Shown in pieces: positions 20,357-63,029 of a stretch of DNA of 64,000 nt. Source of the stretch: Rhynochetos jubatus (Eukaryota; Chordata; Aves; Eurypygiformes; Rhynochetidae); contig CM050656.1 of the NCBI GenBank assembly GCA_027574665.1, positions 17,125,501 to 17,189,500 on the forward strand. Reading direction: 5' to 3'. Position numbers and translations under genes: made by a program. The notes beneath the pieces were generated by a model that worked only from the letters and a program-made list of their open reading frames with translations, was not told the origin of the DNA and did not search any database. Within the stretch, counting starts at the first letter, position 1. The number at the start of each line of letters is the position of its first letter.

Positions 20357-20485
20357 TCAGCCAAACATTGTTATGTATGAAGCTTTCAAAAACTGCATGT
20401 AATTCTGGAGGCTCTGGTTCTTGTTCTCTGACTTCTGTAGGCTGTTCTCCAGCTCTTTCAAACGTACTTCACGGTATTTTTCATT
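20357..20485 (-). CDS. ODF2L: ODF2L coding exon 15 (C-terminus, stop)
   Basis: The acceptor reads TTGATTAG before AAT GAA AAA. The exon encodes residues 562-603, from [17 protein letters not shown] to [12 protein letters not shown], then TGA at 20359-20357. The NYxQFLKxSYxxMFG ending is the conserved tail of the ODF2/ODF2L family, which makes this a firm C-terminus. Confidence 0.92.
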
Positions 20486-29400: not shown

Positions 29401-32400
29401 CCTGTAGAAAATGGAATGCTACTGAATTTATAAGATCTATCAGATAATGTCGCACTAAGAACATTCCATAGCTAGTTTAGGAATGGTACTTTCCATTATT
29501 ACAAACAACAAATTGTGCTATATGCCTCACCATTTGTTTTTCTTGTTAGTGAACTTAAACAATGAAATTTGTGTTGCTGTTTAGTTAGCCATGCGCTGGC
29601 TAGCAGAACAAGTCTTGCTGGAATAGTACATTTCAAGCAAAGACTTATGTTTTCAGCTAAAATAAAACCAGCAAAAGCCAGCTGGAAACAGAGAGTGTTA
29701 CAGGGAAGTATCATAGATGCTTCCCTTTTCTTATTCTTTCTTAGATGCCTCCTCATATTCAGTGGACCAATAGTGGGCTAGACAGATTTCTGGACTGGCA
29801 GTTTGAGTAAGATTGGACAATTTTGTGCTGCTTTTCCTGACAAGAGTGAACTGTTCAAATGTCTGAGAGGAACTCTTCTCTGTCCTTTAGTGGGGTGAGA
29901 CATTAGTGGAAGTGAAATAATTTTGCTGTCATTAGTCTGAAGCAGAAGCTAGTAGCCTAAGTAAGAACCTTCTCCTACACTGCAGTCGACACAAGAGAGA
30001 GCACTCAAGCTGTTTAATCAGTCACTAAATAAATGGCTCTAAGGAAGCTACTAGCAAGTTCAGGCTGATTGGAAGTATGCAGGGGAAAGAACATGTTCCT
30101 TACATGTAAGGGGGAATGAAGTCTTACAAGTTGTGAAATGCAGCAGAGAGAAGGCTACAAATCAAATTTTTTCTAGTTGCCAACTTTAAAATACTGCTCA
30201 GAATTTTAAAATATAAATACATAAACTTGATTACATTGTCACCCTGAGTACTCCACTACTGAATATCAAGACTCTGTGATTACAGAAACCAAAAAGAAAA
30301 ATAGATCAACAGTTTAACTTACTTCTTAAGATCTTCTGTTTGAATTTCTAATGCTGTCTTTATTTCAACCATTCTATCATGCTGGCTTTTCCAGACATCA
30401 GCACCTGACAGTATCTCAGACAGTTTGGCTTCCTAAAGGAGCAAATAAATAAAACAGATACAAACACAGCATGACCAACCAACTTTTCCTAAACTCCATA
30501 GTTGTTGGAGATTAGTTGAAAGTGTTCCAGTTGTTCAGTTTAAAACAATACAGCATGACATTGCTCACAGCAGAGTCACTTACACGTTCTCTTATTCTGG
30601 AGGTTAAACTTTCCACAGCTGCTTCAAAGAGTTCAGCTTTTCGTTTCTGGGACCTGATTGTTTTTTTCAGGGCAGTCTTCTTTTGCTCACTCGCTTCCCT
30701 TAAGGCTATCATCTGGTGCTTGTATTCACCAATTTGAAGTTTCCACTCTGCTATTTTCTTTCCTAGAGTCTGCAGTATAATCAAACATCAACTCTTCACA
30801 AACTCTACACCTTACAGACCATTTTGTGATATAACTTAATCAGGAATAGCAATTACACTTATAAACTGTTTCCATAATGTCTTTGTATCTCAAATCTCGA
30901 GGTTGATACAAGGTATGCACAGCAGTAGGCAAAGGAAAAATACACACTGGGAAACTCATTACAAAGATAATCAAGAGAAAAGGTTGAGGAGGTGCAGAAG
31001 CAGGCAGGAGTAGGGGGAAAGACAGCAATTTGCTACATCACACATTGCTGTGTGCTCTTGGAAATGAATGCAGAATTTCAGTGCAGAAGGCATGGCATGG
31101 AAGTTAAAACCATTTATGAGGGGGAAAATAAAAGTGGTCTCATCATCGCTACTGACTGATTGCTGCAAAGAGTAGCACCATAATGATGCTACTAGTGATA
31201 TTCACTGATATAGTAGTAGTCTGTGCTCTGCAACTACAGTGAGCACACACATAACTAGGGCTAGAGATCATTATAACTGTATACAAAATTTGAATATGAA
31301 AGTTAAGGTCTTGGATTTGGTTCTTTTGAGTCAAGAAGCCAGGAAAGACTGTGTGTTTTTTCTTGAATATCCGTGTTATGATATGGCTTGTGATTAGATG
31401 ACAATATACCATTTTCTTGCAAGATCTCTGACTTTTTCTCATGCATATAATGCCCCCACTCTATTAATGAAACAGAATTGTGTAGTGAAGAAACTATTTT
31501 TTTGAAAGTTATATTTGGTGTTCAATGGAGAGTGAAGCAGAAAATACAAAAAGAAAAGACTAAACACTGCCTTGCCCTCGGCAGATAATTGTTTAGAGAT
31601 GATTAAAACAGGCCATGATAAAGCTTAAACCATAGTGGTAAATCACACATCGTAAGGATAATACTAAAAACATAACTATAATTTCCTGAGTGTTTGGTAT
31701 TGCAGCACTCAGGGAATAAAAGACATTTGCATGAAACGTATTTTTAATGCATTTAATTGTATTATCAAATGTGTACAATGCAATAGAGAGGAGGGGTGGA
31801 TTCTACAATCATCATTATATTATCTTTTCTACTGCTGTTAGTATTTCTGACTAACTAGATTTTTACATCACTCTGATGACAGTGTAATGATCCCATCCAA
31901 CCCAGGAAGCTGAACTCTAACTTCATGACTTCTGTATTTTTCAACTACATATCACTTGTTATTTAAATATGAGTGGAAAGAGAGACCAGACATTAAAACA
32001 TTATATCATGACATACAATAAAAGCAATACCAGACTCTGTTTCTAGGAGAGTCTCAGATGCGATTATTTTTAAGGCGCTACAGCTTACCAAAACCATGAC
32101 CAAGCTACCAGTAGACACCTACTTTCATAAAGACAAGTGCAAGTTGCATTCATATCACTTGGCATTCTTCTGCCAAACTACAGCAATGTAAGTAGGCTAG
32201 CAGCGTAAATAAATCTATCTCAAGTCACTGATAAATATCCTGATTGTAAGAAAGATTAATGCACTTGTTTCCTACGTTTGAGTCTAGGTCTCACACTCAA
32301 TTATGTTCTACATTAATACAGATCAGAGCGACATGCCATTTACCTACTGACTACGTGAATGTTTCTGCCTTATTCAAGATACTAATTGCAAGTTGCTACA

Positions 32401-35400
32401 AAATATTCATATTATGCACATTAGAGGATATCTGTCAGTATAGGTCCTGCTAACAGCCCCAAAACTTATCAATAATCAATGCAAAATGTTTGTGGTTTGC
32501 CAAGTGGAAGATGGTGTCAAGTACTGGGACCCACCAAAAAAAGAAAATACTCCTTCAAAAACTGAAATTATAAAAATGACTAAATATGCAGGAAGCATTT
32601 TTCATATAGAGACGCTTGTAAGATATTTATTAAACAAAGATGTGACCTGGGGGAGCAGCAGGAGAACACCTTCAATTAACAGAGCAAACAGAAAATTTGA
32701 GTCTACACGCAGACTTCTTTAGCTGCTGGTATAAAGAAACACCTGTTATCCCCTGCTATAACCGCTGGAGGTCACAATCACACTAAAAGTAAGTGCTTTG
32801 GGCATTATTCAGTGACTGAGGTAAATTTGAATTAGGAATTCATTTCACAAGGTAAGGCTAAGTTGTTGCTAACTTTTGTCCAGATATTAACAAAATCATG
32901 ACCAGGATTTGAGCTAGCAACTGACATCGCACTTTTTGAACAAACACTTTTAAATAAAGACTGAATGAAAATACAGCTGTATATCAAGTTACTTTATCAA
33001 AGTATCACTTAATGAAAATGTTGTTGGAAGTCTAATAATTGTACTAGGTAGAACAATAAAACAATTTTTATTCAGAATAAAACATGAGGTATATATACAG
33101 ACATATGTGGTATTTTGAAATTGAGTTGCTAAAGCTTCCTTAACAACCTCAAATGATACAATTCATAGGGGTTGTACGCTACAAAGAAAAAGAAAATTGG
33201 AAATTATAAATACATTATTTCTCAGCCAATGTTTTCTCACTCATACCTATGTTCTTATCAAGTTTCAAATACTAAAATCTGAGGCGAAATACAGCTCCCG
33301 TCTTTGGCACATGACCTCTTCCTTGCCTTATTCTAAAGCCAGTGACTGCTGCAAATGCCCAAATTTCCGTCTTGCTTTTTAGAAGAAGAAAGGGAAATCA
33401 TTTCACCTACCTCTAACAAAGTGAGATTAGGCATTAATCTAAGTGTTTCTCTTTCAGTCAGTATTTAGAGGTTTATTGATTCCTTCACAGTCAATAAAAA
33501 GAAACAGGTGGTGACTCATCACCCCTATCTTACAGCAGAAACTCACCCTGGGGCCTTGCCTGCCTCTTTCTATTGACTATATGGAGACTGCCTTAGGATT
33601 GGTATGTATCTTCTAGATACCACAGTTAGGTGAGTGCAAATGCTTCTATGTGTGCTTAACTTATCTTCAGTGGAACTGCTAGTATGGACAAGTTAAGAAA
33701 AGAAGCAAAAAAATCCTTGCAATTAAGATAGTGTTGTCAGGCAGACTGCGGAATGTAACTGCTAATGGTTTTTAATGTTTAGGGTTTTGCTTGTACCAGG
33801 GGATTGGCTTCACGTAATACTTTAAGGTTTAACTTTCACATCTAAGTTAAACTGTGACCACATAAGGCTTTGTTATTCTTTTTTCAAATAACCTGAAACA
33901 CAAGTAAAAATATGTTGACCTGTATCTTCACTTTTAATTCATCATTTTCCACTTCTTTTCTTTGAATCTGGAATTGCAGGTGAGCTTGTACTGTCTTCAC
34001 TGATTTTGACAGGTGGTCTTCTTTCTGCACATTGACCTAATAAAGAGAAATAAACACAAATCTATTGGTCTATGGAGATATGCTGTATGATGCTATTTAT
34101 ATTCTACTTTGCCTTACAGTTCCTAACTGATGTTTGAATGTCCTCAAAAGCTGGAAAAGATAAAATATGCTCCACAAGTATATTTAAAAGTAATAACTTG
34201 TTAATAATGTTTAACAGAAATCACAAACTTGAAATAATGTATGTACATTTGATGCCTCATATTTAATCTGACTCTTTAAGTAGTATGAACAAGGCCTGGA
34301 AGCACCAACTTGGAAATTGAGGCTGAGCAAAAGCATATAGCTAGCAGGTTGACCAAAATTAAGCCACACTGATCACCTCTGCCCTGGCTAATTAGACCTG
34401 AATTGATCTACATTAAATACCAAGGATCATCATCTGCTATCAGATGTACTGATACATTTAATTCAAACTCTAATTTTGTGGGGGGAAACGTAAAGCAGAA
34501 GGGAAGAGGCAACTTATGTCACCAGAACTGAGGTCAGAAGATTCTATGAAATTTACTGCATCTTAATTTCTTTGGCTCAGTCTAAATAAGAAAAAATGAA
34601 AACAGGTAGAAACAAGTATTATCAGTACAGACTAGAAGAGCATTCCAATGCACCAGTGCAAGTGTTCCTTGTGGATACCAGTAAGCAAGGCAGACTCAGA
34701 TTCAGTTAGGTATTGAAGAAAATGCCATTTATTGGAGATAATGTAAGAAGGAACACAGAGATAGCATAGATAATCATTTATCCCTTCAGACACTAAGCAC
34801 CCTGAATTGTTCAGCATTACATAGATCGCTAGTCACGCTACAGCATGCTGCGCAGATCCCATCGATGCTGAGCTTTGCTGGCATTGTGGTCTTCAGAATC
34901 TTTATAGGCTTTTCTGTTCAGCATTTCTACCCTCAAGCAAATGGATGTTTCTATGAAAACATGTTGCTTCATTTCAAGATAAAGACAAGGACATGCCAAT
35001 TGCCAGGTGTGAAAGTGGGGACCCTCACAGGCTCCTCCATTACCATCAGCTGGCTAAGTTTATCCTGCAGCCACGTGGTACGTTCTCTTGGTTAAGAGAA
35101 GAAAAATTCTTAAAGAAGAACCGTGGCTCTCAACAAACCCCAAGAAATTAAAAAAATCAAAGTACACCATTGTCCCCTTCAAGACTGATCTGAACCTACT
35201 CTGTCCCTCGCTGACGCTGAACCACGCTGCACTGCATACATATAAAGTGCGCTTTAGGTATACAAGTACTGTAACACAGATTGCTAAAGTATCAGTAAAA
35301 TAATTTTGAAACTTTTGTAGTACCTTCTTATACAGGAGAAACAATTCTTCTCTCCCTACATTGATTGGTTTCAAGGCCAGGCTGGATGAGGCTTGGAGCA

Positions 35401-41010: not shown

Positions 41011-42389
41011 CGGTGGCGGGCGCGAGGCGGCAGGCCCCCGCCCACAGCCAGCCTTGCCCAGGGGCCCGCGGCTCGGCGGTGCCGTTGCCTCCCGGCAGGA
41101 CCCCGCACCCTCGCGGGCAGGGCCGTTCCGGGCTCGGAGGAGCAGCATCCCGCCCTCCCCGACAGGCAGGGTTCTTGCGGCTGGGGCTCAAAGGCGCTGC
41201 AAGGAGCCGTGGTACCCGGCACCACCCCGCAGCCCGTGCGGCCTCGCGCCGTTCACGGGCACCGGGAGGTTATTTCCAGAGCAAGGTGGACAAGAAACCT
41301 GGAGAGCTCTGGGGAGCTTTGGATCCTCTGCTTGTTTGCTTTCTGTGTGTTTCCATTGATGCGTGTTTTCCTGAGGTTGCACAATAAGTATTCACATAAC
41401 CTGACTGTATGTGAAGCTTTTTTCCCCACGCGTTGTCAAACGGTGTAGAAAAGCCACGTATTTTTAAATAAACGCGTTCTGGTGAAAAATAAACCAATTA
41501 CTCTTGCATCACATCATGCAAGAATGCACTAATAACACTTGAGGTGGCAATTTATGGAATAGCCAAGACATCGAAATAGATGGATGAGAAGGTCACTTTC
41601 AGATGATGAAGTCTGCAAAGCATCATGATCATGTGATATGAGGATGATCATATGTATAGATACATACGGACATACGTGCAGGTATGTACATGCATACGAT
41701 CACACAGTGATAATCTGCACATTTATTTTGGTCAGAGAAATGCTGATAGAAATATTTTTTAATATGCTAAGTAGAGGTCAGTGTTGGCAACTTACATTAA
41801 AAAAAATCCTGGTATTGGGGGAAATAATAAAAATCAATATAAAACATATCTTTTGGCATCATTTGTAAACATGCTGGTGTGTTTGTATTTTATTCTCTTG
41901 CTGGCAAAGCGGTTTCAGAAGACAGAGCAGTTATTCTCTTTATACACTCTTAGGAGAATATTATCTAGCTGTGTGTGCACTGTAATAAAAATAAAAATCA
42001 GAGATTAAATTTCAACCTTTTTAATTCTCATCGAGATTAATCACTCCATTATCCATTCTGGAGTGAGTGCCTGTTTGTGTTGGAATTACAAGGGTGATTT
42101 TGTCTTTGCATGTGCAAAAGGCCTAATGTTTTGCTGTCTGTAGGACCTGTAGCCTTGAACTGTGAATTGACCATCTCCGTCAGACCTTTGCTTCGGCACC
42201 GCAGTTTATGAGCTGTGGGTTTGGTGTCTTATAGTCAGCTCAGACAGAACTTGTAATTTTAGATTTCCCAGAACTTGCTATTTTAAAGGAAAAGGACTTA
42301 TTTTAAAGGAAAGCAATAAATTGTTGCAGTTACCTAAAAATGTGGTGATTGCTTATAGAATAAAGCAACCACTATCCACCAGTGAGGGC

Positions 42390-42410
42390 TAATTAGCATG
42401 ATAATTAGCA
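42390..42410. promoter_or_regulatory. Paired TAATTA homeodomain-type sites
   Basis: A 9-bp direct repeat, TAATTAGCA, spaced by three bases, so that two TAATTA cores lie 12 bp apart, near one helical turn. TAATTA is the typical core of many homeodomain proteins. It lies about 1.1 kb upstream of the ODF2L CpG island. Function is only a guess, since such cores occur often by chance in AT-rich DNA. Confidence 0.25.
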
Positions 42411-45140
42411 CCACACTCTGTACCTCAGAAACAAAGAATGAATTACAAGTTTCAGTCCTCAGAACCACATTTTAATGCCTGTGGAATAACCACGGAGTGG
42501 AAATACGACACACATTTCCACGATGACATAATTACAAGTCTTACTAGAAGAGGTGTGCCGGAGAGAGGCTTCTTCAGATACCACAGGAACTCTGCTGAGT
42601 GTTTGTCATGGCTCATGACCTTGTCTGCTCTAAAGGCGTAACTGCACCCTTAATTTCTGTGTCTGAAATTCAAGACTCCAATGCCTGCCTTTGTTCCTTG
42701 TATAATTTTGGCAACAGCTTGCTATCATAAAAGTCTCACGAAAGCAGCAGGTTGGCTGTGACCCTGTTTATACACTGTTCCTTCCCCATCCTTCTATGCA
42801 CCACGTGGTGTAATACTGACGAGAATTTATTTCTCCCCACAAAGCTTAGACACTCACTGACATTTCTTCCCCCACACTCTTGCAAAATAGGTATGGTGGG
42901 TTTGCTACTTCACCGTCCTGTTTCTCAGCATCTCTCACTCCGTGTCGTGGCATGCCAGCTTCTCAAGCAGGTAGACAGAAAGTCCTTCACGCTACAGTGC
43001 ATGGGGGCAGCAGGCACCAGGGTGAGCTGCTCCGTGGAGTTAACAATGCTATAGTGCTATTGAGTTCCTCACCCAAAAAGCCTCATGTCTTTGCACAGGC
43101 AACTTAGATCATCTTCACTTCTCAAAGAGCAGCAGCAGGTGCTTCTGCACCCACTTAAGGCATGGAAGAAATACAAGGCAATTCCAAGGTATGGGTAAAT
43201 AGCAGGGATGGCTTTCTCCTGAACAGGATTTTACATGGCAGCAGGTCTGCGTATCCTTCATTTGGAGACTGCGGATTCAGTGTTGGTCTTCTTAGGTTTT
43301 GGCCAAGGACGTTTGAGAACATCTTACCCCAGATGCAGGTTATGGCAGCAGAAATTCCTTATTGTGTGTCTTGACCTGCCTGGATCAGACTTCCAGTGCT
43401 AATTGTTCACCATAAATCCAACTGTACGCGTGTCACTCCTCAGTTCCACGTGGGTTACTTCCAGCTCAGTCTGACATGCCAGTGTGTTTGCAGGAGACTT
43501 TTTAGATCTTCAGAGAAGGCAAAAATAATTTTATTTCTTTTTTACTAACCAGTCCTTAAATCTGTGTGCACTTATTCCTCAGTTTAGACTATCTCCCTGA
43601 GCTGTGCAGCCCAGAGGTTGAGTATGAGCCCTGTTGGTTCCCCTTGCTTAGGATGTGCATCTCCTGCGAAACTACTTGCTCCAGTTGCTAAATTGTTAGT
43701 CCTTTCCTTACATTGCAAAATGGCCAGAGAGCAGGGTGGGGTCCCAGAACCAGGGCAGGTACCACAGGTCTCTGTTCAAGACTTGGGAAATGGAATAGAG
43801 ACCTTAAGGGTGGAAGAAAGAGCGAGAAGACACATTACAGAGTGGAGTTCCAAGCAAAAGGGTAGAAATAAATGAGAGCACATTGTATTTTCAAGATTAA
43901 GGTAGTTTAATTAGTATGCATAAAGTTTACTCAAGGAAGTTCCTTTCCAAGAGAAGGGGCACACTCAACCATGTAACTTCTGTTTTAAACAGACTGTTGG
44001 AAGGTCAGATTCTTTCTCTGGCCAAATTCTCCCTCTTGTCAGTGACAGCCCATTAAAAAGTAGCTCTGGAAATTCTGTCTTACAGTGACGGAAGAGAGGG
44101 ACTCTTTTGTGGATGGATTGAGCCAACAACTGTGCTGTGGTTAGTGGGGCACAAACAATACCTACAGGAAAATGGGAAGTTCCTTGGAAGTGCTTAATGT
44201 GGCCAGGTGGAGCTGTAAGCGGAAGCCTGCGGAGGTGTAACACACCATAACAACTGTCAAACCGTTCTCCCCGTGTAACAGCAGGGATCCCATCCCCAGC
44301 AGGTTGTTCATGGTGCTGCTCAGGGAAGATGCTCTTAGATTTACCAAACCTCTGCTTAAGCCCCAGTAGTTTGTTGGTTCCCCAGTCCTGAGCACTCTCT
44401 TTGGAAGCAGCAGTCCCTATGGCTAAAAACTCCCATTTTTCCATGCTGGGAAGGCTGACCTCACTTGCGCACAGTTAGCACAGCCTGGCCATGCCTTTGC
44501 AGAAGCCAGCTCTGCATGGGTCAATGGCAGGCTCCAGCTCTTAGGATTCTGGCAGCACTTGGCTGTGGATGGCTATTCGGGAGAAAGATGGGCCAGAAAG
44601 TCCCTGACTCACCTGTGCTGGAAGCCAGGAGGGGGCTGGGGATCACTTCTGTGGCACAGCCAGTCAGGGAGGAGGGAGCCTGGCAGGCACCTGCCTTGCC
44701 CTTCCACATGTGTGGCTTCAGCTTTCCGCGCCCCACGCCAGCTCTGCTCAGGCATCCTTCACACACAAGGGCAGGATTTGATTTTGGTGCTTCTGCTCAT
44801 CACTGATGAGAAATCAAAGAGTCCTGTGAAAAGGTATGTCTCAAAGCCTGTTGCAGGGAATACAGCGCAATACCTTCTTTTACACACATTTATTAGTGCA
44901 CCCAGTGCACCTTCCATTTTAAAAAGTGATGTGAAAAAGTACTCACATGAGAATGCCCTTAAGAACCGGCAAACTCTTGATCTATGATCCACCGTTAGTA
45001 AATACATAAGTAACATCAGTAATAACAGCTGTACCATCTGAATGACAACAGTGCTGTAAGAAGCTCACAGCTAAATCTATCATAATCCATAAACTGAGTT
45101 CTTGCAAGCTGTTTAATCATTTTAGAAACCTGGTCTGTGA

Positions 45141-45191
45141 CTGGTCTGAATAGCCTTGGTCTGACTAGCCTGTCTGGTCTGAATATCCTTG
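45141..45191. repeat. Short tandem repeat (33-bp period)
   Basis: Two 18-bp copies, ctggtctgaatagccttg and ctggtctgaatatccttg, differ at one base and start 33 bp apart. Partial copies (ctggtctg) flank them. The unit is not part of any element I recognise. Confidence 0.7.
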
Positions 45192-45622
45192 TTGATGCTC
45201 ATGAGTTCCAGTGTTTTTCTGTGCACTCCCATCCCCCCATTGCTTTCTTACCCATCACCCCTCTAACAACTCCTGGCTGGCAATTGTGCTGAAGACAGCA
45301 GTAATACTTGTCTAGGTGGAGTTTCAGAGTCATTTTAGGGAAGTCCTGGCAAGAAATCCAAGGGGAACAGAGGCAACTTGTTGCTGCGGAGGTAGAAAAA
45401 GTAGGGACCAGCATAAGAGGTGCTTAGTTAGCCTTGCTTCTCTACATGTCACCTTTCACTTGTAGCTATCAGAGGCTGAGCGAAGGATAACAGGGACATA
45501 TTTGAGGTTTGCCTTCCCGTCTATCTGAAGCAGAGGTAGATGATCATTACCAAGCTCACCAATTTGCAAGTGCCAACTCACTCCCTTCTCATCCTCCCTC
45601 CTTCAGACACTTGCTGTTATCT

Positions 45623-45771
45623 GCATACCTAGTGGCAGCTCCTTCATGGAAACATGGCAATTACCTGTACACCTTACAACACAAAGTGGGTGGAAAATGG
45701 GAAAAATTAACAATTTCACACCTAACTTCCTAGTGAACGATTATTTGATAGGCTTATAGGATAAATTCCCT
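45623..45771 (+). pseudogene. Relic of CLCA exon 3
   Basis: The start reads AYLVAAPSWKHGNYLYTLQ, aligning with [20 protein letters not shown] of the intact gene with one codon missing. A further 1-bp loss then shifts the frame, and FTPNFLVNDYLI follows (intact: [12 protein letters not shown]). An in-frame TAG falls near the end. The expected acceptor AG is gone (ttatct before gca). The length is 149 against 151 in the intact exon. Confidence 0.82.
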
Positions 45772-45978
45772 AAACCATGTTACTTTTCTGGTTTGCTCTC
45801 AGCTATCAACAATGAAAGACTGAAGAATTACTTGATATTAAAACTGCCTACGGTCGAGTGTTGCTGGAGACTTGCTGTTCAGAAAGTCCACCATATAATT
45901 TGGCTGGCTAATTTTACATACAGTGATATAATGGCTAACTGCAGTTACCATGCATTTGCCTTTCTGTTCTCCCTGCAG

Positions 45979-46086
45979 GCAAAGTCTGTGTTCATGAGTG
46001 GGCCCACCTTGGACAGGGGTGTTTGATGAGTATGACAGTGACAGTCATTTCTATGCAACTGGACAGAATCCAGTTAAAGTTACAAG
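45979..46086 (+). pseudogene. Relic of CLCA exon 4 (zinc-motif exon)
   Basis: The acceptor ttctccctgcag is intact. The exon reads VCVHEWAHLGQG, loses one base, then continues VFDEYDSDSHFYATGQNPVK, VTR. The HExxH zinc motif is still readable, but the frame breaks between it and the DE pair. The donor has become AG|ATAACT, so it could not splice normally. Confidence 0.88.
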
Positions 46087-46999
46087 ATAACTTGGCATTT
46101 TCCTGCTTCTATAAGCCCTGCCCAGTGGTGGGCTTTAGAAAAGTCACCAGTCTTTTTCTATAAACTTTTGAGGTATCCATCTTTCTTCTAGTCCGTATCC
46201 CTTATTAAATATCTTTCCTATTTTATGAATAGATGTGATTTTCTCTGCACTCACCATTACACATTTCTGTGGTTGATGGATTGGCAATGATACTGGGCAT
46301 TACTTTTTTCTGAACGGACACTGCAGACTTAATTAATCACTTCTGTGCTCTGCCACTGGGGAGGAATTGGTGCTTGGACAGAAATCCTCCTTCCCCCCTG
46401 CTCCAAGTGTTTGTCTGTCTAAGCTTTTCTTTCTCATCTCTCCTCTCCCTTCTCGGAGTCCACTGCAACTTTGGAGCTTTTCTGTTTAGCTTCTGGACTT
46501 CTCTTGGTTCAAACTCACTGTTTTAATCTTCGCTACCTCTGCACGGCTTCACCCCATGCTCTCACCCCTGCAGGAGTGCCTGGCTCACGATCTGCTTTTT
46601 CTCTCTGTCCATATGGCCAATGGACTATGAGAAACAAAGTTTAATTACAGCATATTTGACCTGCAACTTATTGACCAAGTGCCTGTACATGATCAGGAAG
46701 CCACTTAACAGGCATTTTCCAGGGTACAGCAATATTTGGAAGTGGTAACTACTGAATTAATGAGTACCCCTGCAGTTGTAAACTTTAAATCCGTAACTAA
46801 TATTTTTACTCAGGCAATAGACTGAAGTGACAGAGAATCGAATACATCAATGATTGTTCTTGGTGTCATTTTGTCATGTATATTCATATTTTTCACAAGT
46901 GTAACTGTGTAATTGCAGAGTACACTCCCAGCCCTGTTAATGTCAGAACTATATTCAGAGAGGGATTTTATGTGGAAATGTATTCTGTTTTATCCTTAT

Positions 47000-47165
47000 G
47001 TGTTCCTCTGATCTTATGGCATCTACAGCTGTGAAAACAAAAACACCCTGCACTGAAGGTAATTGTGTTATTAATAAGTAACACGGCTTTTGAAGGAAGG
47101 ATATGTATTTATTCCTAAAGGAAATCAACTACTACTTTCAGTGCAATTATGAACTTAACTAACAA
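47000..47165 (+). pseudogene. Relic of CLCA exon 5
   Basis: The first codons read CSSDLM. The next recognisable block is TPCTEGNCVINK, followed by TAA. In the next frame LLKEGYVFIPK follows (intact gene: YEKGCIFVP; mammalian CLCA2 as I recall: LFKEGCTFIY). The acceptor reads TAT in place of AG. The right boundary is approximate. Confidence 0.72.
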
Positions 47166-48262
47166 TGTAGCTATATCATGAATTATTTATGAACTGATTA
47201 CTGTGTGATAGTTCAGTTCCAAATATAGTACTATGCTGGATTAAACAAGCACCTCTTTAACAAATTAGGAACTACCTAGCTGGGAGAGCTCAAAAAGTAG
47301 CTGGTAGAGAACCATCACCTAATAGACATTTCTCAAAGGATTGCAAATCAGTGATAGGCATGATGGCATAAATACTTTATCAAGGAATTGGAATAAAATA
47401 TAGTCACTTCTGGACAAGTGTCGCTGAGTATAAAGTGAGAAATGAGGAGGAGGGATAAGACAGCCGCACAGAGTAATGTGGCTTGCTTGACAAACTGTTC
47501 CCACTCGATAAAACCATATTTTATTCCAGATGGGATGGTTATTCATCTAAAGGCAAACAATGCCATTTAAAAGGGGAGATTTTACAAACCAAATGTTGTA
47601 TACAGAACTTATCAGAATTTTACTGTCTCACTGATCTAATCTTGCTTTTTGTATTGTTTCAATAACATATTACATAATTATTACATTGTTCAGAAAAGTT
47701 TCCAGGAAATTCCAATTGTGTTTTTGCAATTATTTCTCTCTTCTAGAATGAGTAACAGAGCATATATCACCTGAAAAGGCATAAGGAAGTTTTATTTTTT
47801 TTTTTAGTTCACAATAAATATCAAGGGTTTCCTCCTAAAATTAACACATAACTAAACGCAGCCAACATATCTGATACTTGCCTAGAACATCAGTGTTTTG
47901 TTGCAAACTGTTACACCTCTTTTCAACACAAAAGCAGTGTTAGGAGCAAAGAGTGGGTGTGAACCTCTCAGGGACGAGGCACAACACAGTGAATGAAAGC
48001 TTTGGCTTTACGGAAAACTACCATGATGGGAGCCCCGGGACACCAACACTAATCAAAATGGGGACCCGATGCAGCAGAGCCCCGCTCTGGAGTGAAGCTC
48101 AAAGGAAATCACTGCAGGGGTGGATAATAAAACTTGTGATGGTTAATATATACATGCAGTGTGCTGTTTGTCTCATTAGTGAACTTGCTGATGTAATGCA
48201 GTTCCTGTTGTCCGAATGCCAAGATCACGCTGGCATCTGTGCAATGTGGGGGAAGCGAACGA
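47166..48262. other. CLCA1-type upstream region, unassigned
   Basis: No gene recognised. Exon 6 or later of the CLCA2-like relic was looked for here without success, so those exons were either deleted or have decayed beyond reading. A plus-strand frame at 47953-48348 has no homology I know and overlaps the promoter repeats. The block at about 47940-48160 could be an old LTR or other repeat, but I cannot identify one. Confidence 0.4.
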
Positions 48263-48411
48263 CCCTGGGTTACTGTGACAAGAAGATAAGATGCACTTGG
48301 GACCCTACCTACTCGGATGGGAAGCAGCAGACTATCCTAGGTTGCTGATAAAAGATGTGCTTGGAACTCAAGATACTTGGATGGGGGAGGTGAACTATCC
48401 TGGGTGACCAC
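48263..48411 (+). repeat. 64-70-bp tandem repeats upstream of the CLCA1 TATA box
   Basis: A diverged repeat occurs two full times plus a partial copy. Matching landmarks are ccctgggttactg (48263), atcctaggttgctg (48333) and atcctgggtgaccac (48398), and also gatgcacttggg (48290) and gatgtgcttgga (48354). The block ends about 30 bp before the TATA box, so it lies in the proximal promoter. Confidence 0.65.
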
Positions 48412-48441
48412 AACAGTCTTCTCACGCCCTGCAGGCGATCA

Positions 48442-48449
48442 TATAAATA
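48442..48449 (+). promoter_or_regulatory. CLCA1: TATA box of the CLCA1-type gene
   Basis: TATAAATA lies 62 bp upstream of the ATG. Transcription would start near 48470, giving a 5' UTR of about 30-35 nt. No CpG island is present. This is a typical focused, tissue-restricted promoter, in contrast to that of ODF2L. Confidence 0.65.
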
Positions 48450-48503
48450 AGACTGATAAGCCACTGCTTTTCTAACCAAGAACCTCGCACACAAGGACAA
48501 GTA

Positions 48504-48662
48504 ATGGAGGTGACTAGGAGTTTGATATTTTTGCTGTCTTTTCAGCTCCTGCATGTGACAAAAGGTTCTATGGTGTGGCTAAATAAGAATGGCTATGAGG
48601 ATTTGGTTGTTGCAATTAATCCCCAGGTGCCAGAAGATGCCAACATCATCCTGAACACCATG
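48504..48662 (+). CDS. CLCA1: CLCA1-type exon 1 (signal peptide)
   Basis: The ATG has G at -3 and G at +4, a good initiation context. Residues 1-53 start with a hydrophobic signal ([20 protein letters not shown]), with likely cleavage near Gly21/Ser22. [17 protein letters not shown] follows, the family's conserved N-terminal strand. The donor is ATG|GTAAGA, phase 0. Confidence 0.92.
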
Positions 48663-51600
48663 GTAAGAACATTTGCATTTACATGTATTGTTTCTCAGCA
48701 GTTGCAACTTGACTTTTCTCCTTGGAAAGTAGCATTTATCAGGTCCAGTTCCCATTCTTGTCAATAGTTTTTTTCCTGCTGTTTTAAATTAAATAAGGGT
48801 TAATCCCATAGTTACTAAACTAGTAATTTCTAATTTGTCTTGCCATCTGTTGTCACAACTAAGAGCACTAATTCCCTCAGACAATGCTGTAATATCTCTG
48901 TTGAGAAGCAGACTGAAATTCCTTTAAGTAGCTTTCCAAATTATGCTTATCTGAAAGATGTCCTACAAACACTTGTTTAATAGCCATTGATTATACTACT
49001 GTTTGTCATTAATATGTCTCATAATGTTCCTTTAAAAACTTGGGGGGGGGGGGGGGGGAGGGCGGGCAGCAGGGAAAAAGGGTTTAGTGGCATTTCTGAG
49101 CTGAACATTCATTCCAATCCACTTAGATGTCTCAATGAATAAATTCCCCTAGAATAGGATGCTGGTCAGGTCTCATGGCAAATAAACTGTTACTCTAAAG
49201 TCAAGTAACTTTAGAGAAAACCTGCTGAATGGGAGACTTCTGACAAATGCCTAGGTTCTGCAGTATGTCTGATGCCTACTGGACCCTGGTGTAGGATTAT
49301 CTCAGTCCCATGTCATCTGTAAGATCAAGTACGAAAGATACTATAAAATTTTTAACACTTCCAGATTTCTTTCTTCTTGTGAGAAGTAGTTTACATGAAG
49401 TAAAAGTCGATTTGATATTTACTTTTTACCATCAGTCCCTGACTGTCCCCTCTTTTAAAAATAAGAGTTTGGATCATTCCATTTTCATGAAGGGACAAAG
49501 TGCCGAATGTTTTTTAGGGCAGAAGTGTACAAGTGATGGTTACTGTTACTGTGAGATACCTACCACATATATTAAATTCACATTATAGGTGACCTTATGA
49601 GAACTTGTTCTTGTACCATTCCTTCAGTTCCCTCGAACTAGTTAAAACTGCTCTACCTGCAGAGCAGGCAGGGGTTTGCGCGGAGAGAGCTGAAGTGGCA
49701 CGTCCCATTACTGCTCATCTTCCCATGGGTTAGCACTCACTATTACTCAGACAAGCTGAATCTCTTCAAGAAACCTCCTTTAGCTGAATTTTTTGTACTT
49801 GTAACATGGATATTTGATTCCAAAGCCTCTGTCACAGCTTGTTTCTTAGTACATAAAAGCCTAAGGCACAGGTTTTAGTTCCCTCCTTCCTGTTTGGATG
49901 TTTTCCACTAAACACTTGTTAGTGAAGAGAAAAATAAACAAAAGGAACACTTTTTCTGATGCTTCTACTCCAAGAGAGGTGGTAAAAGAGCAAGAGGAAA
50001 GGAAAGTAAATGCAGCATATAGTAGCCATAATACAAACAAGAAGAAATGACAGTGAATTTGACAGAAAAATTGCTGTTAGTCAATTAAATGAAAAGCAGG
50101 TGCAGTGTCAAAGCTTGCTCACACTTGCTGTCAAGTCAGTATTAATTTAAGAGTAAAATCCTTGTATTTAGTAGTTTTCACCTCATATGAAGGCTAGAAG
50201 GTGAATTTTATCACAATCATCTCGGACGAAGAGCAGAATTATAGAACGGGTGAGAGATTCCAGGAATTACAGTTTAGTCATTGACTTCTTTGTTTATTCT
50301 GTTCTTAGTGAAGATTGTACTTAGTTTTGTGTTATGTGCTTAGTTCTACTTTATTGTACTGCTGTTTCTTGATAAAGCTCAATTATTCATTGCACATACC
50401 GCTAGATTTTTAATATTAACATTGATATTAACATTTTATTTTCTTTCATTCCTAGAGCATGATTAAAAATGCTTCTAATTACTTGTTTGTAACAACGAAA
50501 CATCGATTTTTCTTCAAGTCTGTAAAAATTATGATTCCTAAAACATGGAAGAAAAACACCAACTATTCAAGATTAAAAACAGAATCATATGATCAGGTAT
50601 GGTTTAGAGAACCCTTTGTGATTAGAACAACAAGGAAAAGCTAGACTGATAAGGCTACATTATGAATCACAGCAAAATCTAGGACTAATCCTGGAAGTTC
50701 TTACTCAAAAATCTTGAAAACAATTGTAGGATTAAAAAAAAAAAAACCCTGCAGGACTGAATTTATTCAAGAATCATGTAACTGTTCTGTACACCCATAC
50801 CATTTATAACTTTGCTCTTACTTTTTCAGGCAGATGTCATCATAGCAGAGCCTTATATGAAACATGCAGATGATCCTTATACCATACAGTATGGCGGATG
50901 TAAGGAGAAAGGACTGTACATCCATTTCACACCTAACTTCTTGTTAAATGACAATTTGATTAACGTTTATGGAGAAAAAGGTAATAGTACTATTTAATTT
51001 AATTGCTTGTTTTGTTGTTCATATGAAATGACCAAGATTTTTCTACATGATTCATGAATTTGGGTACTTTAATTTGCTTGCTAAAATGAAAACAACTTGT
51101 GGAGACATATTTGTCAGAAGCAGTAAATACCTGTGAAATGTCTGAAGTTAAATATTCAAACATGGCCATTAGCAGTAGCCTTCCTTTTATGGCCACTTAC
51201 CAAATAAGCTATCCGGTGTTTGTGTATCTGATTTTGTAGTACATTATGTCTGTCAAAAAATGTAAGGTTTGCTGCTCTGTAGAACATTTTTGCCAACTTG
51301 GAAAAAAGGCCTCTAGAACAGTTCCTGCATTTCTAAGAGTCAAATAAGAATAAAAATTCTAGTTCTGGTTCCTAAACTGACGCCTTCCTTTACCTCAAGT
51401 CAAAAATATTATCCTGATTGCTAAAATATCTCACAATCTTCCTTTATTACCTCAGATAATGATTATTAATTGTTAAAATGTTTAAGTAAAACACTGAATA
51501 GCTTTTAAACAGTTGTACTTACAATGTGCATGTGCCACTCTTTTTCAACAGGTCGAGTTTTTGTCCATGAATGGGCTCACTTTCGGTGGGGGGTGTTTGA

Positions 51601-54600
51601 CGAATATAGTAGCGATACGCCTTTTTACGTGTCTAGAAATTCTGAAGGCGCAAGTATTGAAGCAACAAGGTATTATTCTTTTCTTCATACTTCTGCTCTT
51701 ACATTGCACAAGTTTAAACATTTCAATAATGTTTTCAATGTTGTCATCGTCTGTGCTGAGTTTGTGCTTTGTAAATTGTCCACAACCTGTTTGGATGATT
51801 AAAAGATGCTTAGTCAGCAACATCTATTGCCAGCTCTGCAGCCCAGAAAACCACAGGTGCCTTCGGTGCTGTTTTGTAAGAGGTTCAGGAGATCAGGCCA
51901 GATAATCTTTAGCTCTGCTTGCGACTGCAGACTTCAGCCACCATTTGTTCTGTACTTATTTAACATAATTTCATTGAAGAGCAGTTATCAACAACACTGA
52001 AGCTGCCTACTGAAACCACTATGGCTTTAAACAGTTTCTACAAAGGAGGACAATAACTGAATGGATGTAGAGAATTAGTTCAGGATGCAGAGTTAGTTCA
52101 GGCTTGCCATTTTTCCTAGCTCAGGCGTAACAATACAGTCTTTTCTATTGCAACTACTAGCAGGATGACTTTCCTGCATAGCCTATAATTATCACAAGGA
52201 AGATCACAAAAGACCACAAGAGTTTTATGATTTTAACTATTTCTAGATTAGTTTGAGGACTCTGCCAGGTACAGAGACAGCCTACCTATGTACTTGTGCA
52301 GTGTCTAGTACAGGGCTCTATCAACAGCAATTTGGCTTTGGGCAGCCAAAATTCAAACAAATAACCAGTTACAGACTATATCCAGGTTCTTAACCAGCCC
52401 TGCCTATCTTCTTTTCCCTTAGCTGTCCAGCTGGTGTGATTGGTGTACCTGTTTTCCCAGACTGCCTTAGAGACACGTGTGAGGCAAGAAGCTGTAGATA
52501 TGATGGTCAGCTATATGAAAAAGGATGTATATTTGTTCCAGATATACGACAAAATCTCTCATGTTCTGTTATGCATTTGCAATACATGTCTTCTGTAAGT
52601 ATTACACCTTTCTGGACATCTGGGGTCTAGCCAGTTATTTCTGCTGAGGAGAATGATCAGTCAGGTGTTTCTGTAATTAATTTCTGTTTCAAAGAAGGTG
52701 GATGATATTAAAATCTGTTCAAAAGGGAAGACAAAGAAGCTACTGGAAATGATTTGACAGCTGCTTCCTTTCAGTAAGGGTGAAATGTACTGCAGCCTTA
52801 TTATCCTTCTTGCTCCGGGTTTGGAGAATCAGGTCAACAGGTATACAAGTGAAGCATTTTTGCCAAATGCCTTGTCCATAAGATAACTGCAGTTTTTGAT
52901 CACCCCTTCTGTAAGCTGGCACCTGAACTGCATTACCTGGTTAGCTCTATTACACTCCGTTGCAGAGCAGTCTGGTCTGTCTATCTATCAACACAGAAGT
53001 AGCTGCCCACCTCTCTTGAAACCAGCCAGGACAACCAGGCAGGCCTCCTTATGCCATCTGTGTACTGTTCCAGTGTCTGTGAGAGGGTGCTGGGACAGGG
53101 GTTAGCAGGATGGACAGCCTCCTTGCAGGCTAGATCCCTGTGGTATGGAATCACAACTCCTCCAGCTACTGACCTTATTTCTCTCTAAAGCTCTTTCTAA
53201 GAACTTTATGGGTGTCCTGGTCCTAGCTAGAATACAGTTAATTTTCTCCAGGGCAGATCATATGGTTCTGCATTTTAGATTTTTGACCTAAACCAATAAC
53301 ACAGCAACATTCCAGCTTTAGCTGGAGAGCACCAAGGCCTTCTCTGTTTCTCTCTCTACCCTGACTATTGAATAGGCTGGGGGGTGTGCAGTAGGCTGGA
53401 AGGGGACACAACCAGGAAGATGACCCGAACGAACCTAAGAGATATGCTGTACTACATAACATCATGCTCAGCAATAAAAGGGAAAAGAGGCAGTTTTAGG
53501 AGGGTTAGCCATCTTATGCTCAGGAACTGGCTGGGTATAGGTCTACCCATGGTAGGTGGCGAGTGCCTTTGCATCACTCATTTTGTTTCCTCTCTCTTCT
53601 TTCACTTATCCTTCACTTATTAAACAATTCCTTATGTTTAAAAATTTTCTTTGCTCTCCCTGGGGAGGGGGAGGAAGTGTGATGCTTCTCTGCCCACCGG
53701 CATTAGCCCACAGCAATGGGTCACAGCCTTCCCCCAGCAGTATGCCATGGACATCCTGAGACATCTAAAAGATTATTTCCTGCTTCTCTGAAAGTCTTGA
53801 GTTTGTATCTTTTGCATGTTTCCTTATTGCACCCAAGAAAATGTAGAGGAACTAGTCCAAGACCATCAGCTTAACCCCAGAAGTCGGTTATATATTCAGG
53901 CTCCTAACTTGTGCTGACCTCCATGCTGTTCAACTACAGTATTTGTGTGAGCAGGCTTAAATCTAGTAGGACCTCCATGAATCAGTCACCACAAGGATCT
54001 CAGTACTCAGGCTGAAAGCTTTGTTTCTGCTTGTCACAACACGCTTATGTAAAAATCTGAGATAAGTTCTTTGGGAGCACTTTCTTTGCTTGCCTAAGAA
54101 CCTGGCTGGCCAGGCACCATGGCACAGAGGACATTCGTGGAGAACACCACCTCCATTCGTCCTGGCCCCCACCACAAACTTCATATTTTCTGAGATAACT
54201 TTCTTATGCTCATACAGTTGGGTTCAGAATTCAGCTTCAGTCTGACTTTTTAGGTGGTTGAATTTTGTGATAAAGACACTCACAATAGTGAGGCTCCAAA
54301 TATGCAGAACAAGATATGCGACCACAAAAGCACTTGGGAAGTAATTATGGAATCTGAGGACTTTCGCAACTCGGCTGTTATGAATGTTTCTGTACCTCCT
54401 GAGACTACCTTCAGGCTACTGCAGGCCCAAGACAGAGCAGTCACTTTAGTACTGGATGTTTCTGGGAGCATGTCACAGGTAAGAATATGTATTTTATAAG
54501 AAATTTTTAGGAAAAATTGTAAGAAGCAGAAAAAGTTACAAAACAAGTAAACAAACAAAAAAGCAGTCAAATCTGTAATTAACTTGACCATTTTACAAAA

Positions 54601-57600
54601 AAAAAGGACTACTCTTAATCTCCCTGGTAATTTTATTAAGAAGTTCCTACCTGATACCACTTAAAAATACTGAGAGTTGTAAGCCAGGCTTGGTCTTTTT
54701 TTCCTTGTAAAATCTGAATTTCATATACTTTCCTTCCTTTGTTCCAGAACTAGAACAGCAATGCCGTTGTATTTCTTCCAAGCAGAAAATGTACCATAGA
54801 TGGAGCTTCACATTGCATTTTTGTTATGAATTATTCTAAAATTTCAAGTAAATATGTAGGTCAGAATATGTCAATAAATTAGGTGTTCTGTCCTCAATAC
54901 TATATTGCTCTTTGGAATCAAGAATGTGAGCTGGCATAATGTTATGTCATTTTAACAAGGCTGAGGTTATTTTTCCTTTTTTCCTTTTTTTTTTTTTCCC
55001 CATAAAATTTTGCACGTTTATTCATTCCCAACCTTGTGGGGCATGAGATACTAAGCTTGCTTATGGATGCGGGTTTAGTAAAGATCCCTGAATATGTGCT
55101 TATTTGCATAAATATTCTAATATTTTTATAAAGCTGTAAGCAATGTGATCATCTGTGGAAAGATGACAAAATTATCTTGGTAGGTAAGGCACCTATCTCA
55201 TGATTTTTTAAAAGAATTCAAACTTGCATGCATATTCTAACAACTTTTAAATACCGGTCTATATATTCTTTTGATGACATACTGCATTTTCTTATCTGTA
55301 ACTTACCTCTTCCACAGTTCAGCAGTGAGCCAACGACCATTACTCTCTTACTGAAAATACAGCAAATTCAGTTTTTCATTTCTCGTAGGAATTCAAGCCT
55401 AAAAATAAGACTATTCATCTAAAGAAGTTAATCCAAAAAGATCGAACATGTTGAGAAATATTCTTAAATATTTGACAGTCATACCTTAAACCAAAATATA
55501 CGTGAAAAAGCAGTACATGATTCAATTCTTTAGTTATGGCATACATGTAATAATTGTGGGATTCTCCCATAGTGCTCTGTCAACAAATCTATTTCCAGAC
55601 ATGCCGTTCTAGTCCAGAGCTGTTCTTGAGACTGATCTTCAGCAAAGATCTGCAATTGTAACAAATGCTATTGTTTTTATTGTATAGATGTCTACCAATC
55701 ATAGTATATTTTATTAAATCAGTTAGCAAATAATAATAATGTAATGCTAAAAACCAAAATGAAGATAATTATGAAATAAATACTGCAAGAATAGCTAGCT
55801 CCAGAGATAAATGTTTTCAAATATAACTTTTTTTTTTGCAGTAATCCCTTTGAATATTTGTAATTAAAATAGTCATACTTTTACTTCAGCATTATTTGTA
55901 TTTTCAAAATACTTAGTCTAGGGACTAACCAACTCCTCAGGCACTGTTGGTGTTGTCCTTTTCCATTGCCATCATGCCATCAAAACAAAAAGGTGACCAA
56001 CATCTTGATTAGGCATGAAGTCAGAAGATGGACTTTGGACATCATCAGAAGATGGACTTTGCCTGGTGACATCTTGCCTGGAAATTGCAGTTTGCTGCAT
56101 GTTCACAGTCCCAGAATACGGTTTACATCTCCTCTTTTCTAGAACTGAGCATACCTATGTTACATTATGGACAGTAGATTTTAATTTTTAATTACAACCT
56201 GATCAAGAACAAAAATTTCTATATCTTGCTCAGTCATAGCTTTTCAGAAGAGATTGCATTCTAAAGATGTTGGTTTTCTTTACATACAGCACGGCCGCAT
56301 CAGACATCTGCGCAGTGCTGCAGAGCTATTTCTGCTCCATATTATTGAAATCGGTTCCTGGGTTGGAATTGTCACGTTTGACTCTGATGCATCTGAAAAA
56401 GCTCCTTTGCAACAAATAACCAATGACGCAGCACGCCAAAAACTTGTTCAATGTTTGCCTACAATTGCTAGTGGACAAACCAATATCTGTGCAGGAGTAC
56501 GTAAAGGACTGAAGGTAATGTACAATGTGGAAGTATCTCCTGGAACATATAGAAAATGAGGAAGAAGTGAGAAACATATGTGATAGCCCACTGGACACGG
56601 ATTTCCTATGCAATGGTAGGGTTAAGAATCATAATATGATTCTTGAATCTATCAGGAGGAAAATTGGTATAAAAACTATATGGCATTACCATTATATGGC
56701 CTTAGAAAGAGTATTACCAGAAAACAAGCCAGATGTGATGTCCATGCTTCAAAAAGGATATTAAAAAATACGATCAAATTCCAAACTGAACTACAAGAAT
56801 TATCTAAATTTTGGAAAATCAAATTTCTAGTTGAAAACCTATGAAGTTCATTCTATTCAGTTGTTTTTGGTTTTGGTTTTGTTTTTGTTTTTTAAGAGAA
56901 AGAAGTTAATCTAATACAGTTCTTTAATTACTTCTAGTGGAAAGAAATATGCAGGGATAAACTGACAGCCCAATCACATTGCTGGGTGTAGATGCAGAGA
57001 AAAGGCTGCAGACCAACACAATAATGAGCATCATATTGTATTCACGAGAACTCAAGATTTTTTCCTAGAAAATATGGATTGAGACAACACCAGAGATCTG
57101 ACTTACGAATGACAATGAACATATAGAATAAATGGGAGGGTCTGGCAACTAGACTGGGATGAAACAGCCAGGACAGAGGCCTCCCCTGTGGGTGCTCCCT
57201 ACCCCTTTGTGCCCACCTTCAGTTACCTCAGAGTCCACCCTTAGACGGAAATCTGCCCTTCTCTACTCCTGAAATTTTGATTGGAGAATAAAGAGTAGCT
57301 CCAGACAGTGGACATTTTTAATATGATGCCCTTAAACATCCAGTCTCTGAACCAGCAAACCATGGACAGGCAGAATGCTGGGACAGGTTCCTTCCCTAGG
57401 AAATATAAACTAAATATTCATTATTTATAACTGAACACTTACTAAATCTAAGCAATTAGATGTTGCAGTATGAACTGCAATAATTAATACTGTAATCATT
57501 TAGTGTTAAATAAAAATTAAAACACTTATTAAAGAACAAAGCTGTTATATTTGAAGTTAACATTTTTAAATGCATACATTGACTGTGCTATGGGATAAAC

Positions 57601-60600
57601 TAGTATTTAAAATTATTCTGCTGCTTATATCATTAATTCTTTTATTGATGCAGTTAATTGCAGATAAAATGAATACTACAAACGGTTCAGAAATTGTGTT
57701 ACTGACAGATGGAGAGGACTCACATATAGCAACTTGCCTTGATACTGTGAAACAAAGTGGGTCAAAAATTCACACCATTGCACTGGGGCCATTGGCAGCC
57801 AAAGAATTAGAAGAATTTTCAAAACTAACAGGTAAATATTCTAATGCACTCTCTCTGGCATGCATATTCAAATAGGAAAATGTAAAAGCATGGCAATTCA
57901 GTGGTCTGGAAAAAAGAAATTTAAGAAATTTAAAACAAATTTAATTTTAAAGAAATTTGGGGTTTGTGACAGACTTTTTTAATACAAAGAAGCAGAATTG
58001 TTTAGATCCATAGATTTGCTTTAAGAGCTGTCTTGATTTAAGAAATGCAGTAACATGACCATACCCTATTAGTATGGAGATTTAATTATGATATTATTTT
58101 ACAGCATAATAAGAAATGACTAGAACTTTCTATATGCTTTAACTTATCGGCATTTTTTTATTACATAAAAAATAACAACTTCCTCCAACTGTTGTGCTGA
58201 AGTGCACTGGCTAGGAAATCGTAAACACAGCGACTACCCTTCTCATTAGCAAGAATGAAAGCTCTTCACGTAGATCTAGAAAGGAAGCTGACTCCAAACA
58301 AATATGGTGAATAAATATTCTTAGTTGAGAGATGCACATGCTGTGCATTTTCAGACCACTATCCACTTGTTTTAGCCGTTTCGACAACTTGGAATGTCCT
58401 TACGCACTCTTCAGCATCATTAGATCAACATGACTGTGGGAGAATAGCCGAATTCTGTTCTGGCCTGTATTTTAAGACAGAATTTGCTGTTTAAGTTCCA
58501 CTTGCAGAGTATTTATTAAGAATGATTTGTGAGCCAAAAAGAACCCAGATGGTCCTTCAGCACGTAGTCTTCAACCAGCAGGAAGCTTAGAAACAGAAAA
58601 GCAGTTTTCCAAAGATGCTGAATAGATCTCTGAGCTAACACCTCCTCCAGCTCATGCTGCTCCACGTGTTCTCTCACAAGGCAGAGCCACGCACCTGATG
58701 TAACCTGCACACCTCATGTCAGCATCTGCCCGAGGGGCAGGGGTGAGAGGCATTGGGTGGTAGGGAGGGGCAGTGGGCTCACCGTGGTACGCTGCCCAGG
58801 TCTCAGCACTGCACAGCAGTCTCTCCCTACTCTGGGGTTTCAGTGACCTGCACGTTAGGAGCATAGCGGTGGTTCAGTTTTTGTCTGGCACGTATGAAGT
58901 CAGTTTGAGAGAGAATTGCAACAAATGCATGAAGTGGAGATGCTTCAGTAGAGCAGGATGGAGCCATATTCACGAACTCAGCAACAGACCTGCCCTGAGC
59001 ATGAGAACCTCCAGTGGCCTTGAGCTGCTTGAACTCCTGAAAAGAGTTCACATGAAAACTTCACATTTGGTAACACATGATCTAGATTTTAAGAGTCAAG
59101 AAACATGGAATGCAACTGTGTCCTTTCTACAGTGGTATTTTCAGAGCAGAAATTCAGAAGGGATAATCCAAAAGTACAAGGAAAAGTCTAAAAATGCTGT
59201 ACTTGATGACATGCTGCAGGGAGTGATTTTTTTTTTCAAGCTACACCAGCGATAGATAAAATGAGTTGATCACACAATTCAAAATTTACTATGACACATC
59301 CATTACATTTCTTATTTCATTTCGTAACAAACTGACAGCCTCAACAGAACATTCACTACCAGAAGTCACATAAAATTTAGCAAATTCATAGTAAAAAATA
59401 GTATTTCTACTTCTTTTGCTCTTGTCTTACAGGAGGTTTAAAGCTTTATGCTGTAGATGGATTCGTCCCCAGTAAATTAACTGAGATGTTCAGTGCAATT
59501 ACATCAGGAAGTGGAGATATTTCTAAACAATCTCTTCAGGTCTGAATTTCAACATATTTTCCTATGCATTTAGTTGATCAGTAATGGAATTAATCTAGAA
59601 AAAAAATTATAATTGTCAGTGGCTTAATTTGGAAATAGGAGCAAGTACCTTTTTTAGTGATCTACATTTCACTGCAATGAAATAATAATATACATTATTT
59701 ATATAATTCTTGATTTCATAAAATCAAGAAAATGATTTCTCATAATTGTCAAAGTCCAAGCAACTTGGAGAGAAAAAAGCAGAAATTGCCCAGAATGTTT
59801 AGTTCACTTTTACATGAAACATTATCTTTTAGAGCATTTTAACAGTCTAACTTAAGTACCAAAGATACAATTATAAACACAGCTTCTCTCCTAAGCTATA
59901 ATTATCATTTTAATATATGAACCTTTAGACTTTTCATCTAGGCCAATTGTTAATTGGAATTTTGCAACTCATTTGTCACTGTTTTAAAATTTTAACATAG
60001 ATCCATTCCTGTGTTTTATCCAAAATGTACCACTTACAAAGATAGCTACATTATAACCAGTAATCAATGTAGATTTGAAAAGCAGATCTGGAATTTTTTG
60101 ACTTGTTATATTGCCTTTAATTGAGTCTTCTGTACCACCTATACAGGGGGAAAAAAATAATTCATGACATGCTATTTTTTAATAGCAGACGTTACTGTTC
60201 ATAAAATCAGAGTGAGGAAATTTCACAAAATTATATTCATTTTAATAAAGGAAATATTGTTTGGTCACTTGTCTCTTCTATATATTCTCTGTTATTTCTG
60301 TTGTTATTTCTGTCTCTTTCATTACTCATAAGCCTTACAGTCATATGTGGAGACATTTTCTTTCTCTCTCTTCCAGGATTTTAAGACAGGCAAACATCAA
60401 AGGAAATACAGCTTACTGGCACAACACTTTAGATAGGTAGACAAAAGGTTTAGATAGAGAAATTAAGGACTTACTCTCATTGTAGCTTATTCTGTTTACT
60501 GTAATTTTGCACTTAAAATCAATTCTACTCTGCAAGCATCCATTTCATAAAATGAATCTGGCATTTCATTAGTTTTCTTTGTTCAGCAGTTGTGCCAAAT

Positions 60601-62882: not shown

Positions 62883-63029
62883 GTAAAGAACGTTTCTGAA
62901 ACAGACAATTCTTCGCATGATTTGATGTAGGGGGCTGAAAATACTTAGCAAATGGGATCGTTTAGATTCACAAAAATTGCATTTGATGTTAAAGGATGTT
63001 CCATCTATCATTTTCACTACAAAAATGAT

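Follow-up and report, generated by a model that had tools for sequence, protein, structure and literature searches.

In birds, CLCA2 has been described as present in one intact copy next to ODF2L in the species analysed (chicken, turkey, quail, and ostrich; turkey stood outside the sequence analysis, and the protein was stained there), and that report regards the gene as strongly conserved, with a role in the keratinocytes of birds and mammals that is likely indispensable (PMC9651043). For chicken, a two-gene CLCA layout has been reported (PMC9007345). According to another report, Passeriformes are without CLCA1, CLCA2, and CLCA4, so that CLCA loss in birds is not new as such, and budgie and eagles are credited with "at least one CLCA gene" (PMC6679542). 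Among mammals, the cluster 3 member of the CLCA genes, a different family member, has likewise been inactivated in place by frameshifts and nonsense changes.

The locus described here, from Rhynochetos jubatus, has in common with the CLCA2 genes of chicken, quail, and ostrich, as far as these are set out in PMC9651043, the place beside ODF2L, the order, the orientation, the exon 3-4-5 layout, and the CLCA2-type residues; however, those are intact 14-exon genes, whereas only three broken exons are found here. With Passeriformes it shares the loss of CLCA2 at the ODF2L-SH3GLB1 locus. There, CLCA1 is gone too and no trace was seen (PMC6679542), whereas here CLCA1 is complete and CLCA2 relics are left. 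Among the papers listed in searches of the open-licence literature, none described such a relic in a CLCA1-retaining bird. That the CLCA locus can lose genes is already known, and a CLCA2 relic beside a retained CLCA1 is a new case.

Gene order at the locus

The window, that is, the whole stretch of 64,000 nucleotides that was analysed (C11:17125501-17189500), belongs to an assembly of 1.33 Gb in 148 contigs. It was joined to the adjoining 40 kb of the same contig, giving a sequence of 104 kb that contains zero N, and the relic locus lies within a 34.9 Mb contig. Genes were placed by using human proteins as queries. The human CLCA1, CLCA2, and CLCA4 reference sequences are approximate, and so are the exact scores; the one part checked, the VWA part of CLCA1, agreed with PDB 6PYO in all but 2 of 176 residues. 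The gene order was ODF2L(-), CLCA2 relic(+), CLCA1(+), and SH3GLB1(+), with the following flanking genes:

20363..34033, minus strand: ODF2L, matched in seven pieces lying between human residues 171 and 643, with the N-terminal part unmatched
48504..64000 in the window and on to 65987 of the joined sequence (stop included), plus strand: CLCA1-type gene of 14 exons with an open frame
From 75585 of the joined sequence, plus strand: SH3GLB1, matched by the human protein

The CLCA1-type gene encodes a protein of 928 residues; exons 2-14 are all preceded by AG, and exons 1-13 are all followed by GT. It matched Pfam CLCA (E 7.1e-112) and VWA. Its VWA domain carries an intact MIDAS motif (DVSGSMS), a feature of CLCA1-type and not of CLCA2-type proteins (PMC9651043). 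Features of avian CLCA1 were all found in this gene, namely 14 exons, the MIDAS pattern DxSxS, and a putative C-terminal transmembrane segment, the last being a hydrophobic stretch near the C-terminus judged by eye only. The sequence-only reading had put ODF2L on one side of the relics and an intact gene of CLCA1 type on the other, and this placement was borne out. Within the window, Rfam at gathering thresholds gave no match, and the NCBIfam scan returned TIGR00868 alone, below its cut-off.

An old dispersed repeat was also observed at 47938-48430, matching 8 further genomic sites at 67-80% identity. It ends about 70 bases before the CLCA1 start codon, beside a ATATAAATAA stretch (48441-48450), and may accordingly have supplied part of the CLCA1 promoter.

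Three broken exons

For the exon scan, a frameshift-tolerant comparison of the 14 human CLCA2 exons with positions 41300-48480 was combined with 60 dinucleotide shuffles, taking the best of both strands. Three relics, in the order 3-4-5 and on the plus strand, stood far above the shuffles (window 45623-47157), in agreement with what had been read from the letters; about 400 nt of relic are left in all.

45623..45759, plus strand: relic of CLCA2 exon 3, with scores of 85 (human CLCA2), 83 (the bird's own CLCA1), 30 (human CLCA1), and 40 (human CLCA4), the shuffle maxima for the first two being 44 and 43
45979..46086, plus strand: relic of CLCA2 exon 4, scoring 131 against CLCA2 (shuffle maximum 45), 103 against CLCA4, 94 against CLCA1, and 94 against the own CLCA1; Pfam CLCA E 1.8e-11
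47000..47157, plus strand: relic of CLCA2 exon 5 (cysteine-rich part), scoring 76 against CLCA2 (shuffle maximum 44)

Pieces of CLCA exons 3, 4, and 5 were recovered by plain tblastn as well. When exons 3-5 were taken together and read so as to fit CLCA1, every break except one being written as X, they were assigned to the CLCA family by Pfam PF08434 (E 4.7e-27), and the HExxH motif was present as HEWAH; exon 4 alone, with one X, gave the E value listed above with the same profile. A PDB search with the relic in which the first half of exon 4 was read in the wrong frame gave no match.

Alignments confirmed frameshifts in all three exons. The exon 3 relic has at least one, at about 45680-45710, where the alignment runs through KHGNYLYTLQH, a shift, and then FTPNFLVNDYL; an early stop TAG (45757-45759) is a lesion additional to those listed before. 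The exon 4 relic is 108 nt long, where the CLCA2 layout expects 109, and has a single -1 frameshift at about 46011-46016: it reads GKVCVHEWAHLG, the shift, and then GVFDEYDSDSHFYATGQNPVKVTR. Its zinc motif is still readable and its acceptor AG is intact (45977-45978), but its donor has changed from GT to AT (46087-46088). The earlier description of this exon as carrying one indel and a legible zinc motif was accurate, as was the listing of one GT-to-AT donor among the lesions. In the exon 5 relic, several frameshifts were found, with CSSD, PCTEGNCVINK, and KEGYVFIPKGNQ readable. Two lost acceptors had also been proposed. That of exon 5 was upheld, since AT (46998-46999) occupies the position of the AG. 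For exon 3, positions 45621-45622, where the AG of the acceptor would be expected, read CT. A pyrimidine tract further upstream is followed by an AG, 17 nt ahead of the predicted start (45605-45606), and the acceptor is therefore better described as lost or displaced than as strictly lost. The relic would yield no CLCA2 protein, and it gives no sign of a new function.

The other 11 exons scored within the shuffle range of the same scan. The VWA exons, in which a CLCA2 gene would show an interrupted MIDAS motif, are among those that could not be recognised. The intervals in which the missing exons would be expected are:

41300..45600, plus strand: expected place of CLCA2 exons 1-2; no recognisable exon, with exon scores at shuffle level
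47160..48480, plus strand: expected place of CLCA2 exons 6-14; no recognisable exon

Exons 6-14 thus appear to be deleted or decayed past recognition. The stretch 41400-45600 is single-copy, its sole match in the genome being itself. No further CLCA2 exon relic stood out in 1-41300, 41300-45560, 47160-48480, 66000-75560, or 75560-104000 of the joined sequence; the top score in these intervals was 54 (exon 8, reverse strand, 1-41300), and the shuffle controls cover 41300-48480 only. The strongest non-relic row, for exon 14 with the own CLCA1 as query, scored 49, a value reached by 2 of the 60 shuffles, and was taken as chance among 28 rows.

Affinity of the relics

The relics had been read as CLCA2-like. 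In a rival explanation, CLCA1 or another gene of CLCA1/3/4 type was duplicated in tandem and the copy decayed, so that the relics would be uninformative on CLCA2; the relic and CLCA1 do lie head to tail, and exon 3 barely separates CLCA2 (85) from the own CLCA1 (83). The other two exons oppose it. For exon 4, the score was 131 with CLCA2 versus 94 with CLCA1, and for exon 5, scored at the relic site, it was 74 with CLCA2 versus 49 with human CLCA1, 32 with CLCA4, and 31 with the own CLCA1. When exon 5 of the own CLCA1 was used as a query, it found a chance place only (38 near 44164, with 25 of 60 shuffles reaching 38).

The tree and AU tests also argue against a CLCA1 copy. The tree contained five rows, namely the relic, human CLCA1, CLCA2, and CLCA4 (the approximate references), and the own CLCA1, so that its CLCA2 was human rather than avian or reptilian. 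The relic grouped with human CLCA2 at 97/96 even when exons 3 and 5 were read to best fit CLCA1, at 100/99 when the relic was read to fit CLCA2, and at 92/93, below the program's star threshold, with exon 4 alone. Joining the relic to the own CLCA1 gave p-AU values of 0.027 (CLCA1-fitted), 0.003 (CLCA2-fitted), and 0.043 (exon 4 alone), and joining it to human CLCA1 gave 0.0002 (CLCA1-fitted) and 0.0001 (CLCA2-fitted). A grouping with CLCA1 or CLCA4, which would have spoken against the sequence-only reading, was not obtained. In these comparisons, the relic belongs with CLCA2, against CLCA1 and CLCA4.

A recent CLCA1 duplicate was considered separately and rejected: exons 3 and 4 of the relic are only about 70% identical to the own CLCA1 at the DNA level, and exon 5 remained at shuffle level (score 32, shuffle maximum 33), so the relic is no recent CLCA1 copy. 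The position points the same way as the sequence, because the relic lies directly beside ODF2L, before CLCA1 and on the strand of CLCA1, as a CLCA2 gene would. If the relics were a CLCA1 copy, the CLCA2 place would otherwise stand empty, with no other CLCA2 found in the assembly. An origin of the relics from CLCA1 is therefore very improbable.

Search for a second CLCA gene

Genome searches, which score best candidates only, covered the 1.33 Gb assembly and not unassembled DNA. With the PF08434 profile, 5 matches were obtained, every one inside the CLCA1 gene. CLCA2 exons 3-12, at E values up to 1, gave 9 matches, of which 8 fell in CLCA1 and the remaining one was relic exon 4. Parts of CLCA2 exons 1-3 and 12-14 gave 5 matches, 4 in CLCA1 and 1 on contig C8 (E 0.8). 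No second CLCA gene besides CLCA1 was found in the assembly by the profile and CLCA2 exon searches, and the search for an intact CLCA2 elsewhere, which could have overturned the earlier reading, came back empty.

These results bear on another rival explanation, in which CLCA2 was partly duplicated, the relics being the dead duplicate, while the functional gene sits in DNA missing from the assembly. It would fit with exons 3-5 alone remaining, and some avian genes do lie in hard-to-sequence DNA (PMC12954441). However, the relics occupy the ancestral place, avian CLCA2 is single-copy beside ODF2L in all species analysed in PMC9651043, the locus is inside a 34.9 Mb contig in a stretch without N, and the searches of the 1.33 Gb assembly brought up no piece of a second copy. 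We consider a hidden working copy hardly credible.

With its broken frame and splice sites, and with no working copy found elsewhere in the assembly, the relic qualifies as a unitary pseudogene. It is highly probable that this bird had a single CLCA2 gene and that the relics are its remains, still at the ancestral place as a unitary pseudogene. That the lineage had lost CLCA2 and left a wreck at its original site was already the conclusion of the sequence-only reading, and both the published place of avian CLCA2 beside ODF2L and the absence of an intact CLCA2 elsewhere in the assembly agree with it.

Age of the loss

Among readable relic codons identical in human CLCA1, CLCA2, CLCA4, and the own CLCA1, 11 of 40 were changed; among those the same in human CLCA2 and the own CLCA1, the count was 21 of 62. 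Read as neutral decay, these counts correspond to about 0.14 (40-codon set) and about 0.18 (62-codon set) changes per site. The neutral rate is 2-3 per site per billion years. The loss of CLCA2 may accordingly be placed, very roughly, at 50-90 million years ago, a range in which both the reading and the rate are uncertain. The suggestion that the loss "may be fairly recent" was drawn from the state of exon 4, which is the best-kept piece; given 11 of 40 invariant codons changed, several indels, and 11 of 14 exons unrecognisable, it is unsupported. Continued use of the exons, for example in a short or non-coding transcript, might be suspected from the fairly good preservation of exon 4 and its intact acceptor, but with the exon 4 donor changed to AT, its frame shifted, no AG at the predicted acceptor place of exons 3 and 5, and 11 of 40 invariant codons altered over the three exons taken together, its probability is negligible.

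Comparison with the passerine type of loss

Passerines carry GH2 on chromosome 1 (PMC10016047). In this assembly, contig C2 (135.8 Mb) was inferred to be the chromosome 1 counterpart because it carries the HBB cluster. The passerine type of CLCA loss was not what we found here: CLCA1 is complete, and there was no GH-family match on C2. Given that CLCA1 is kept and no passerine GH2 gene was seen, the locus looks like a separate or intermediate stage of CLCA loss.

Other features of the assembly were noted in passing. HBB and MB both lie on chromosome 1 in chicken; here that chromosome appears split, in a passerine-like manner, with the HBB cluster on C2 and MB on contig C5 (77.5 Mb). The lack of a GH-family match on C2 points the opposite way. 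MYC exon 3 aligns with the chicken sequence over 170 codons with no difference in length, whereas Passerida are marked by an inserted residue (PMC3917694). On balance the genome is read as that of a non-passerine, probably a member of Neoaves. From their size alone, contigs C48 (85 Mb) and C46 (16.5 Mb) might tentatively be taken for Z and W. On contig C28, at about 2.36-2.41 and 2.99-3.19 Mb, a growth hormone amplification was observed. In five copies, residues 2-216 of chicken growth hormone could be aligned in four pieces, and all five encode an identical sequence; of a sixth copy, the last exon alone was found. Long stretches are shared between copies at about 97-99.7% identity, and the copies form two groups in opposite orientation. 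In PMC10016047, no non-passerine had more than one growth hormone copy among 159 non-passerines. The amplification may be an assembly artefact.

Discussion

For a unitary CLCA2 pseudogene, a simple course of events can be proposed. CLCA2 would have become dispensable and then gained inactivating changes, its 5' exons 1-2 and 3' exons 6-14 having gone by deletion or decay. The loss would have taken place tens of millions of years ago, and the epidermis of this bird would have been working without CLCA2 ever since.

A wider history is conceivable, although we rate it below an even chance: CLCA2 may have died once, early in the Neoaves radiation, leaving most living birds without CLCA2, with passerines losing CLCA1 later. 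The decay of about 0.14 changes per site at invariant codons and the phrase "at least one CLCA gene" for budgie and eagles (PMC6679542) are compatible with this history. If such a single early death in Neoaves is true, fowl, ostrich, and mammals would be the only groups from which this "likely indispensable" gene of keratinocytes is known. This bird may represent a stage between birds that keep both genes and passerines that keep neither, and whether CLCA2 went before CLCA1 is therefore testable from one short interval, ODF2L-CLCA1, across bird genomes. A dead CLCA2 for which no second copy was found contradicts, as a general rule, the view of the gene as "likely indispensable" given in PMC9651043. 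CLCA2 can be lost, and its loss is open to study here.
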